Shown here one piece after another: positions 20,801-24,739 of a stretch of DNA of 43,999 nucleotides. Positions within the stretch are counted from its first letter, which is position 1, and every line of letters starts with the position of its first letter. The position numbers and the translations under genes were made by a program. Source of the stretch: a virus; the IMG/VR virus record IMGVR_UViG_3300028550_000711, positions 1 to 43,999 of that record. One strand, 5' to 3'. The notes under the pieces are model-generated. The model was not told where the DNA came from. It was given only the letters and a program-made list of their open reading frames with translations, and searched no databases.

Positions 20801-21405
20801 CAGTCGCCCCACTCTGCTATACCAAAGCCTTCCTGACCCCAGCCAAGAACTTCGACGCTTTCAGAACCTACCGCGCCCGTGCCGCCAACACCAGCCTCAT
20901 CAATAGACAGGCTGAGAGCCTCCACACCAACGCCGCCCGTACCGCCTGCACCAGATACGCCCCTAACGCCTGTTGGCGTTATTGTGCCAACAGCACCCAC
21001 ACCAGCAACACCAGTTTCTGTCAGTGTAACCTCAAAGGCTTCAGTACCTATTTCGCCTTCGCCTGCCGCGCCTACTGCATCTGGGCCAGATGAAATTAAT
21101 ACGTCACCAACACTAGCAAATGCAGGAACACCAACGGGCGGCAGTAATCTGCGATCAATTGTCCAGTCTTGCGTGAAACCAATAAAGATTTCAACATTTT
21201 CTGGGTCGTTATCGGGCCGTGGATCAAATAAAGCCGTGGCATCGATAACATTTTTTGCTGGCGTTAGCTGCGGCTGCTTTGGCTCATAATCTTCTGGAGA
21301 TACGCGCAGGCCATCCCATGTGGTTTTGAGTTGGGTATAGGGAACCCGAAGGCCACTTATGTCGCTTATCGCCTGAGATTTTTTTCCTCTTGCGTACTTT
21401 GCCAT
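20800..21405 (-). CDS. Virion structural protein with Gly/Val repeats
   Basis: A 201-residue protein. The first 100 residues start KYARGKKSQAISDISGLRVP and carry VSPEDYEPKQPQLTP; the rest is a run of short Gly/Val/Ala/Thr repeats (VTLTETGVAGVGAVGTITPT, LSIDEAGVGGTGAVGSES) that would fold as stacked strands. The end is WGQEGFGIAEWGD. I recall the MAKYA...SGL...EPKQPQL head from many marine phages, always among head/tail connector genes. Likely a virion surface or neck protein. Genes on both sides overlap by 1-3 bases. Confidence 0.65.
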   Translation of the reverse strand: MAKYARGKKSQAISDISGLRVPYTQLKTTWDGLRVSPEDYEPKQPQLTPAKNVIDATALFDPRPDNDPENVEIFIGFTQDWTIDRRLLPPVGVPAFASVGDVLISSGPDAVGAAGEGEIGTEAFEVTLTETGVAGVGAVGTITPTGVRGVSGAGGTGGVGVEALSLSIDEAGVGGTGAVGSESVEVLGWGQEGFGIAEWGD

Positions 21406-22088
21406 TAATATAAATTCAGCGCAGTGGGCTGAACCCTCAGAGACACACCATCATTGTCAGAAGCCGCTGCGAAATCAAACGACCTCTCATACATTTCGTT
21501 TAGTATTGAAAACTTATCTGTCGCGTATTTTAGTGACAGCTTGCTTGCCAGCCCAGCGCAGATGCATTCGTTCCATCGATATGGAATGTCGGCGTTTTGA
21601 TCTGATGCTGTAATGTCTTGAAGTTGGGTTATTGCCCAGTACACAAGACTGTATGTTGTCCTGTCTGGTATTTGCCAGATGTACAGGATCGGCGTAATTT
21701 GCTTGTCCAGCATGTATTGGCTTGGCTTGCCGCTTGACGTTTTATTTGGCAGTTGATTGTAGTCAGAGATCGACACACGATTAATGATTTGATCGGACGT
21801 ATCTGTCCCAGAGCTATCGCGAACGACAGCGTCCAGAATGTCAATCGTACCTAAGTCTAGGGTGTAGGGCGTTGTTTGATCCTTAACTAAGGTCAAAGTT
21901 TTTTGCTCTAGCGTCCAGTAATTGATACCCCGATTGGCCCACTCAGAGAAGAGAAGGTTTAGGCTGCGCCGTGCTGACACGGCCCTGTCACCTGTTTGCG
22001 TTTGGGGATCAATTCCACAACGCTCAAATGCTTCAGCAATTATTTCCTCTACATCTGGTTTAAAAGCTACTGTGCCTGAGAGTGCCAT
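21405..22088 (-). CDS. P22 gp4-like head-completion / tail accessory protein
   Basis: A 227-residue protein. It begins FKPDVEEIIAEAFERCGIDP, then ARRSLNLLFSEWANRGINYW, the diagnostic helical core of the P22 tail accessory factor gp4 family that binds below the portal and prepares the tail. Strands and a helical C-terminal part (ASKLSLKYATDKFSILNEMY) follow. Length is comparable to, slightly longer than, P22 gp4 (166). It lies next to the adaptor gene, as expected. The family call is good; I cannot tell whether it has the muramidase activity reported for gp4. Confidence 0.78.
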   Translation of the reverse strand: MALSGTVAFKPDVEEIIAEAFERCGIDPQTQTGDRAVSARRSLNLLFSEWANRGINYWTLEQKTLTLVKDQTTPYTLDLGTIDILDAVVRDSSGTDTSDQIINRVSISDYNQLPNKTSSGKPSQYMLDKQITPILYIWQIPDRTTYSLVYWAITQLQDITASDQNADIPYRWNECICAGLASKLSLKYATDKFSILNEMYERSFDFAAASDNDGVSLRVQPTALNLY

Positions 22089-22703: not shown

Positions 22704-22751
22704 ATTAATCTCCTAGATTGTAAAGTGGGGGTTGCCCCCCACCAGATTAAT
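22704..22751 (-). promoter_or_regulatory. Intergenic hairpin that can cover a ribosome site
   Basis: On the minus strand a 7-base stem with a GCAA loop (22725-22742) is flanked by an outer 8-base inverted repeat, ATTAATCT/AGATTAAT (22744-22751 and 22704-22711). The right outer arm overlaps the AGGAG region before the start at 22703. No clean U-run follows, so it may tune mRNA stability or translation of the downstream gene rather than stop transcription. Confidence 0.45.
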
Positions 22752-23299
22752 TACGCAATTTGAACATACTCAATGATGAACGTAAACGATCCTGCTGTTG
22801 TCGCATTCACTGTATTAGTGATGTTGCAGAAAATAGTTCTTTCGGCGTCTGTATATTGAACAGAAGCTGGGGCTGTTGTACCATCTTGCGTCTGAAGAAC
22901 TAATGCAGTCACTGTTACGTTGTGTACAACAACGGTTGTACCAGCATCCAAGATTTCGTCAGCTTGAGTAGCTACAATTTGTGCGCCTGAAGAAGATGTA
23001 CCTACTTCGTAACCAATATCACCTGATCCAATAACTGGAGCAACGTCACAAAAAATCTTAATGTCAGTGATAATTGTATTCGCTGGTTGTGTAAACTCGC
23101 CAATAGTTGGCGAGTCACCAGCAGTTGAGTTTACTGTTACGCCTGTGGCAAAGCCAACGTGCTTAACAAATTTATCGGTAACAATGCCCGTGGATGCAAT
23201 AGTTGCAATGTCTGTATAAACACCAGTTGTTGCATTTTTTGATACTACTTGGAAGCCGCCTTCGGAACGCACTGGTCCTGTGAATGTTGTATTAGCCAT
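22751..23299 (-). CDS. Head decoration or fibre-like beta-rich protein
   Basis: A 182-residue protein starting at 23299 (MANTTFTGPVRSEGGFQ) after AGGAG; the in-frame ATG at 23320 lacks a ribosome site as good. It is beta-rich with alternating Val/Thr/Ile stretches (TVNSTAGDSPTIGEFTQPAN, TVTALVLQTQDGTT). The FTGPVRSE...F opening is one I recall from small marine phage decoration or fibre proteins. It is the first gene after the terminators at 23389-23437, so it is the start of the second half of the late region. Probably a capsid or tail surface protein. Confidence 0.6.
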   Translation of the reverse strand: MANTTFTGPVRSEGGFQVVSKNATTGVYTDIATIASTGIVTDKFVKHVGFATGVTVNSTAGDSPTIGEFTQPANTIITDIKIFCDVAPVIGSGDIGYEVGTSSSGAQIVATQADEILDAGTTVVVHNVTVTALVLQTQDGTTAPASVQYTDAERTIFCNITNTVNATTAGSFTFIIEYVQIA

Positions 23300-23388
23300 G
23301 ATAATCTCCTGTCGTGGCAAATGTCAGCCACATTGTGCGGCTGTCAGGGATGCTGGCACAATACAACAGGTCTGAACAAAAAGAAAGG

Positions 23389-23406
23389 GGCGATCCGAAG
23401 ACCGCC
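23389..23406 (-). terminator. UUCG-loop terminator, second copy
   Basis: GGCGGTC-TTCG-GATCGCC on the minus strand, followed by CCTTTCTTTTT. It is the same hairpin as at 23787-23806. On the plus strand it is followed by TTTTTT, so it can act both ways. It lies 49 bases past the stop of the 79-aa gene. Confidence 0.75.
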
Positions 23407-23412
23407 TTTTTT

Positions 23413-23437
23413 GTAACGCTAACGGCGTTAGTGTTAC
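23413..23437 (-). other. Hairpin after the 79-aa gene
   Basis: An 11-base stem with one G-T mismatch pair: GTAACGCTAAC at 23413-23423 and GTTAGTGTTAC at 23427-23437, loop GGC. It lies between the 79-aa gene and the UUCG terminator and may add to it or protect the mRNA end. It is palindrome-like, so an operator site cannot be ruled out. Confidence 0.45.
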
Positions 23438-23454
23438 GTTTTGATTAGGCTTGG

Positions 23455-23694
23455 TTAATACTGTGGTCGGTATTGTACTTTCTGGACGCTTTGCTTAATT
23501 CCCTGCCAGCCTGTCTTGGCAATTGCTACAGCAGTTGCTGCCTGCGCTTTAGTTGCTTTGATTTCCCATTCATCAGCGGAAAACTCAACAGCGGCTTCAA
23601 ATGCGCGGCTCCAAGAAGCTGTGCCTTCGTAAGATGTCAAAGCTGCTTCGGCTAACGCTTGGATTTCCCATTCACTCATATATGCGTTTTTCAT
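23455..23694 (-). CDS. Small protein in a self-contained expression cassette (moron-like)
   Basis: A 79-residue protein, helical, with repeated Trp/Ala/Glu motifs: EWEIQALAEAALTSYEGTAS, SWSRAFEAAVEFSADEWEIK. The two EWEI segments suggest a weak internal duplication. GGGAGAG precedes its ATG. It has its own promoter (23719-23779) and is bracketed by two copies of one terminator hairpin, right after the capsid gene. This layout is that of a moron, a gene inserted with its own signals, whose role is often host modification or exclusion. The product is not recognised; function unknown. Confidence 0.6.
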   Translation of the reverse strand: MKNAYMSEWEIQALAEAALTSYEGTASWSRAFEAAVEFSADEWEIKATKAQAATAVAIAKTGWQGIKQSVQKVQYRPQY

Positions 23695-23718
23695 TTGATC
23701 TCTCCCTTGTTTCTATAA

Positions 23719-23779
23719 ATTATATATAGGGTATATATCAGGAGTTACAATAGCTAGATACAAATTAAATACATTTAAA
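23719..23779 (-). promoter_or_regulatory. Promoter-like element, copy B of a repeated element
   Basis: On the minus strand TATAAT lies at 23719-23724, 24 bases before the ATG at 23694. The 47 bases upstream at 23733-23779 match copy A (4407-4453) in 42 positions, and the 8-base gap to TATAAT is the same. The block includes ATTTGTATnnnGCTATTG-like sequence and TTGTAACTCC. Expected to drive only the 79-aa gene, since a terminator follows it. Confidence 0.68.
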
Positions 23780-23780
23780 T

Positions 23781-23806
23781 AAAAAAGGGCGATCCGAAGA
23801 CCGCCC
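23781..23806 (-). terminator. UUCG-loop terminator after the major capsid gene
   Basis: Minus strand: an 8-base stem (GGGCGGTC and GATCGCCC, one G-U pair) around a TTCG tetraloop at 23787-23806, followed directly by six T at 23786-23781. This is a textbook rho-independent terminator, 27 bases past the capsid stop. Confidence 0.85.
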
Positions 23807-23833
23807 CAATCAAACCAAAACTAGGTTTTTAGA

Positions 23834-24739
23834 TTATCCGCCTTCGGTGCCAAACACGCCACGCCAGTCGGTGACGCCAAAGCTGTAACGCTCTCGTACT
23901 TTATAGCGCACGTTTCCAGTTTCGAAGTCGCCTTCCATGCCTTTTTTCATGGCTGAACGCTGGAACATTTTCAGTCCGTCAGGCACGTCAGTCTGAACAA
24001 AGAACGCATCGCCATCTGTCAAACGGCGCATAATGTGATAGCCCTGTGGCAGATAGCCACCAGCCTTAATCGCATTAATGTCGTTGTCGGCAGTACCTGT
24101 GCGAAGCTGGCTTTCCAGCAGACGCTCTGCAACAAACTGATACGCAGTTGGGATGATTAACTGAGTACCCTGCGCTGCAATCCGAAGGCCACGATCATCT
24201 TTCATATCCGAAATTTGGATAAGAATTGACTCAAGTGATGTTTCGGACAGATCAGCCGCCGTGGCAAGCACGTTGGACTGAATGCCGTTCTGTGTTGGGT
24301 GCGATGCACTCAACAATACAACGCCGTCACCACCATTTACACCAGCGGTCTGTGCGTTATTCAAGACGTTTGCAGCCTTGATTTCTTTGGTCGATGCCAT
24401 CGACCGTGCCAGTGCCTTGGTGTACCGTGACGCCAAGCTACCATACTGACCATCCTCTTCAGCTTCCTCAGTGATTGAGAACGCCAAGGCGACAGTTTCG
24501 TGCTGGTAACGCGCAGTCCATTGCTGACCTGCTTGGTCGTAGGATACTGATCCACCTTCAGTTTTCGTTGGCGCTAGGCCAAATCCACTGAGAAGCAAAT
24601 CTTCTTCGTATGCCTTTTGCGAGGTATTCGATTCAAAGACAGCTTCGTATTCTGCTGGATAGCGGTCGTACTCAAGTCCAAAGAGAGTGTTCAGACCCGG
24701 CTCTAGTGTTTTCGCAAAACTTGCTCTATTCATTGCCAT
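23834..24739 (-). CDS. Major capsid protein, HK97-fold (Mu gpT-like)
   Basis: A 301-residue protein with AGGAGGGT before its ATG (24739). It begins MAMNRASFAKTLEPGLNTLF; has FESNTSQKAYEEDLLLSGFG, a Thr/Gly loop, SITEEAEEDGQYGSLASRYT, a long helix with Ala/Ser, LLSASHPTQNG, LIIPTAYQFVAERLLESQL, and ends VRERYSFGVTDWRGVFG. These are the typical marks of capsid proteins of the Mu gpT-like HK97-fold group. No N-terminal delta domain, so the separate scaffold is used instead. Position after decoration and scaffold genes and a strong terminator fits high expression. Confidence 0.85.
   Translation of the reverse strand: MAMNRASFAKTLEPGLNTLFGLEYDRYPAEYEAVFESNTSQKAYEEDLLLSGFGLAPTKTEGGSVSYDQAGQQWTARYQHETVALAFSITEEAEEDGQYGSLASRYTKALARSMASTKEIKAANVLNNAQTAGVNGGDGVVLLSASHPTQNGIQSNVLATAADLSETSLESILIQISDMKDDRGLRIAAQGTQLIIPTAYQFVAERLLESQLRTGTADNDINAIKAGGYLPQGYHIMRRLTDGDAFFVQTDVPDGLKMFQRSAMKKGMEGDFETGNVRYKVRERYSFGVTDWRGVFGTEGG

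Follow-up and report, generated by a model that had tools for sequence, protein, structure and literature searches.

A moron is a promoter-gene-terminator unit between core genes, a definition (PMC6316719) that fits the locus described here with a predicted promoter, and the late region of SPP1 also has a segment bracketed by transcription signals (PMC6316719). The PeSL of T4-type phages are mobile cassettes of a promoter plus a stem-loop that, according to texts citing Arbiol 2010 and Comeau 2014 (PMC4503421, PMC3950731), presumably mediate recombinational gene shuffling. The phages considered here are of the CRP-901 type, a genus with reported high abundance in the ocean (PMC10149686). Terminators, promoters, hairpins and morons do not come up in the main text of the paper that describes them. 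Our analysis of one stretch of DNA from a virus of marine Roseobacter-type bacteria, 43,999 nucleotides long and hereafter called the window, makes it highly probable that a moron-type cassette occupies an accessory-gene hotspot of CRP-901-type roseophages, where cassettes are moved by recombination at short identical blocks.

The left flank of the site is the major capsid protein gene (23834..24739, minus strand), which is of the Mu gpT / PF25209 type (phrog_371, major head, E 1e-17; PF25209, E 2.5e-13). Hairpin 1 (HP1; 23786..23807, minus strand) is a predicted terminator 3' of this gene, with its core at 23788-23805 followed by a T tract. The cassette between the hairpins runs on the same strand as the capsid and tail genes and consists of an A+T-rich module, a ribosome-binding site, the 79-aa ORF and a 25-nt palindrome. 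A reading of the sequence places a promoter-like pair at 23723..23750 (minus strand), TTGTAA (23750-23745) and TATATA (23728-23723) separated by 16 nt. This pair is followed by a Shine-Dalgarno-like GGGAGAG (23700..23706, minus strand), the 79-aa gene that is the cargo (23455..23694, minus strand) and, at the right end of the cassette, the palindrome R (23413..23437, strand not assigned). Hairpin 2 (HP2; 23389..23406, minus strand) is a second exact copy, with an A tract on one side and a T-rich tract on the other. Beyond this terminator come a conserved motif, CCTGTTGTATTGTGCC (23355..23370, minus strand), which may be a promoter of the next gene, and the Mu-gpT-DE RNA (RF03012; 23297..23349, minus strand), a leader that includes the ribosome-binding site and start codon of that gene. 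The downstream gene itself forms the right flank (22751..23299, minus strand, with its ATG at 23299). An earlier note on this DNA had set the cassette between capsid and connector genes; the capsid flank is correct, but the connector flank is not, as the SU10-type adaptor lies two genes further on (22088..21405, minus strand). The palindrome and the Rfam RNA are additions to what that note described.

The duplication of the hairpin around the 79-aa gene, on which the earlier note was built, is borne out. The 18-nt hairpin GGCGGTC-TTCG-GATCGCC (GGCGATCCGAAGACCGCC on the plus strand) has exactly two copies in the window, at 23389-23406 and 23788-23805, compared to a mean of 0.02 copies by chance in shuffled sequences, and a search of the window that tolerated up to 3 mismatches gave no further copy. 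Both copies score as predicted intrinsic terminators on the minus strand, and in RNA folding both form a C(UUCG)G hairpin (-16.2 kcal/mol and z -4.4 for HP1, -12.8 kcal/mol and z -2.7 for HP2). With HP2 as a predicted terminator, the cassette has the terminator of its own that is expected of a moron. In some relatives HP1 and HP2 differ (GGCTGTC or GGCCGTC variants), so exact hairpin homology is not required in every case. The same 18-nt UUCG hairpin was also seen in L091, L140, L142, L182, L109, L147, L169 and other loci, with no related capsid gene found adjoining.

Comparison with close relatives defines the junctions. The nearest isolates, Roseobacter phages CRP-901 and CRP-902, have a single hairpin and lack the gene. 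So does the closest empty allele, L189, which relative to the window is 98.7% identical in the capsid protein (amino acids) and 100% in the adaptor. On DNA level, 913 of 934 nt are identical to the left of the hairpin, including the capsid gene, and 99 of the first 100 nt to its right. The window differs by a 399-bp insertion (23407..23805, minus strand) that equals one hairpin plus 381 bp and, because of the repeat, can equally be drawn as 23389-23787. The filled form was also found in a different contig, L199, whose cassette is identical to that of the window at 380 of 381 positions. Taken together, the L189 and L199 comparisons show that the window carries the filled version of a site that occurs elsewhere in an empty form, and that both junctions fall within the hairpin. 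The two hairpins might instead be independent convergent terminators whose repetition is meaningless, and the presence of the same hairpin in phages without this capsid adjoining suggests that it may be a favoured terminator sequence. We consider this explanation extremely unlikely, because from either side the window and L189 agree at almost every base as far as the hairpin. Since both junctions lie within the hairpin, recombination at the terminator, as the earlier note had proposed, fits best. It may have been a de novo insertion in the lineage of the window, but exchange of whole filled or empty alleles via the conserved flanks would look the same.

Occupancy of the site varies widely. We compared 40 distinct CRP-901-type loci that have this hairpin together with a capsid of at least 84% identity; the slot is empty in 18, filled in 21 and unassigned in 1. 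These calls rest on leader distance and cargo; the hairpin pattern missed copies preceded by GG. The sample consists of metagenomic contigs, part of which were retrieved by cassette or hairpin sequence, and about half of the loci retrieved by capsid similarity alone are filled. As expected of a moron, the gene is found in one genome and is missing from the corresponding site in close relatives. The empty form that the earlier note had predicted, one hairpin and no gene, occurs in L189 and 17 further distinct loci, and the contrary outcome named there, the gene in all relatives, is excluded.

Cargo at this slot comprises at least a dozen gene families in a nearly fixed order. Examples are the 79-aa gene, an HTH_39 winged-helix gene (PF14090), a 191-aa gene and many unknown genes; two others appear from their sequence motifs to be cysteine-protease-like and zinc-finger-like. 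The order is hairpin, promoter-like module, gene(s) often then a GGGGGCCACGCGCCCCC stem-loop, palindrome, sometimes the HTH_39 gene, hairpin, leader and next gene. In the window the first slot is filled and the second empty, in L093 and L210 both are filled, and in L157 the promoter-like module and HTH_39 gene are present with the first slot empty. The 191-aa cargo protein of L018 shares 68% identity with gp29 of CRP-901, located at the end of the non-virion block that this phage has on the opposite strand. This cargo protein, found 3' of the capsid gene in L018 and L119, also has relatives in phages of Vibrio, Rhizobium and Agrobacterium. In L145, the slot 3' of the capsid gene holds an array of at least 6 ORFs that extends past 1.6 kb with no leader in view. 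The site is a hotspot where roseophages exchange accessory genes: in close relatives of the window the slot is empty or carries quite different small genes. Near-identical backgrounds with empty and filled alleles and several cargoes provide a clean natural experiment, and the slot indicates a defined pool of small accessory genes that bring their expression unit with them.

Such a regular arrangement raises the question of a dedicated site-specific system, in which the hairpins, internal stem-loops and palindrome R would be recombinase targets in an integron-like array. The nearly fixed grammar would suit this explanation, as would the stem-loops after genes and the highly conserved palindrome confined to this locus: an exact-pattern scan gave 30 viral contigs with R, and all those with visible neighbouring genes have it at this locus. 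However, the palindrome lies within the cassette rather than at the outer edge, the hairpin contains both junctions of the window, and homologous blocks suffice for the exchanges. In addition, no recombinase was matched among the cargo proteins scanned, the remaining genome having been searched in part. We therefore judge a dedicated system to be very unlikely, also in the form of an integron-like array in which small genes directed at the host or at competitors would be exchanged at defined sites, the stem-loops and the conserved palindrome.

A tree of capsid DNA with 44 rows contains at least 10 occupancy changes and at least 19 cargo changes, among which gain cannot be separated from loss. 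For this reason, and given that loss between direct repeats of 18-19 bp is easy, the 79-aa gene could have long been a normal component of the capsid region, with the empty sites being deletions between direct hairpins. This history is very unlikely in view of the many unrelated genes in the slot, the empties scattered across the whole tree, and the pair L145 and L212, in which the capsid DNA is identical and the cargo different. These observations mean that gene replacement must occur too, and single empties such as L189 can still be explained by deletion.

Signs of exchange are also found within the cassettes. The left module is alike in 17 cassettes carrying different cargo genes. Between the window and L200, nucleotide identity reaches 97% in the gene, similarity in the left module is 74% and the right hairpins differ; as read from the DNA, this is a mosaic of the kind given by recombination at short shared blocks. 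DNA similarity of the 79-aa gene to phages outside the CRP-901 group covers the ORF only, and the cassette ends are common only to this locus. In CRP-901, a protein of the AAA_24 type adjoins a DUF669 gene, a pair that we take to resemble a phage annealing/recombination module; the early region of the window phage is incomplete.

We propose recombination at short identical blocks as the model for this locus. The hotspot lies between the capsid gene's UUCG terminator hairpin and the Mu-gpT-DE leader of the next gene, and cassettes would be gained, lost and exchanged when co-infecting phages recombine by a homologous or annealing-type mechanism. Comparison of loci shows the exchange itself, and the enzyme is presumed. 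The identical blocks used would include the hairpin (19 bp at each junction of the window) and the shared left module, along with stem-loops inside the cassettes, the palindrome at the right end and the genes on either flank. Because a cassette combines a promoter-like module, small gene(s) and a terminator, it could be expressed apart from the late operon. The capsid transcript would still terminate at HP1, and the next gene would retain its own signals.

The moron layout put forward in the earlier note is supported for the anatomy of gene and terminator, and the promoter is a prediction. A sigma-70 promoter scan found no match inside the cassette; the weak TTGTAA-16-TATATA pair keeps its position among cassettes with different cargo (17 left modules), and this conserved pair suggests that the cassette may have its own promoter. 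No other match to the CCTGTTGTATTGTGCC motif in the window comes close to the one at the position given above. A genome-wide set of phage promoters based on this motif was rejected, as a high score occurs only once in the window. The palindrome was rejected as a terminator of the 79-aa gene on the coding strand, where it is followed by A and not T.

The RNA leader at the right of the site is recognized by its Rfam covariance model (23349..23297, 73 bits versus a gathering threshold of 49), and Mu-gpT-DE was matched in 15 of 15 sources checked. In 37 of the 40 loci, the leader pattern is directly 5' of the downstream start codon, at distances from the capsid gene that range from 90 to about 1250 nt. 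Cassettes sit between the capsid gene and the leader, and none was seen between the leader and the next gene. Because Mu-gpT-DE stays with the next gene in filled sites, it looks like the leader of that gene and not like a 3' element of the capsid gene. In the outer stem of the Rfam structure, CCUG pairs with a CAGG that overlaps the Shine-Dalgarno region, and from this we infer a role in translation. The locus thereby offers a positional argument that the Mu-gpT-DE RNA controls the gene after it.

The 79-aa protein has three predicted helices (pLDDT 87), giving a predicted three-helix bundle. Its dN/dS is about 0.09-0.2 where computable, and this low ratio indicates purifying selection. No significant match was found in Pfam, PHROGs, PADLOC or PDB sequences, a fold search of the PDB with the predicted structure gave nothing below E 2.6, and a BFVD search returned two matches, both uncharacterised phage proteins. 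Relatives were found in 74 viral loci, none in 50,697 phage records, and none in a conserved-peptide scan of 84,980 bacterial/archaeal genomes. Most of those in unrelated marine phages lie within strings of small ORFs that are usually non-structural. Some are near terminases of several types, T7-type RNA polymerase, helicase, or Erf-like or SSB-like genes, names that come from reading the sequences and not from a family search. The homologues' neighbourhoods support, without proving, the earlier note's description of the gene as non-structural, and this family context suggests that the product would probably be a small accessory protein, not part of the virion, that targets the host or competing phages. 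A second lineage (L308, L315 and L331), whose capsid is 57% identical, has the 79-aa gene and other small genes at the same site on the opposite strand, which is an independent arrangement at the same locus. The gene also contains an 18-nt near-repeat (94%; 23555-23572 and 23657-23674) that encodes EWEIQA/EWEIKA.

The locus can be compared with several described systems. An integron-type cassette has an associated recombinase, for which the cargo scan gave no match. Like the morons of lambdoid and other tailed phages, the cassette is a small transcription unit between two core genes that is variably present in close relatives. Unlike in morons, the upstream gene's terminator is present in duplicate, with one copy on either side of the cassette, and the slot is multi-allelic, a hotspot whose gene arrays have stem-loops between them. 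The full match to Mu-gpT-DE adjoins the insertion here, and its position ties the RNA to the downstream gene, not to gpT as the name suggests. PeSL share with this locus a promoter-like and stem-loop module that is common to different cargo genes (17 left modules here, with a predicted promoter). However, the phage is not T4-like, its nearest isolates CRP-901 and CRP-902 forming a separate genus (PMC10149686), and there is a single hotspot in the virion gene block, with different sequences and an added palindrome and RNA leader. The locus works like a moron hotspot; it also resembles PeSL shuffling and works like a PeSL, but it is not a PeSL by membership.
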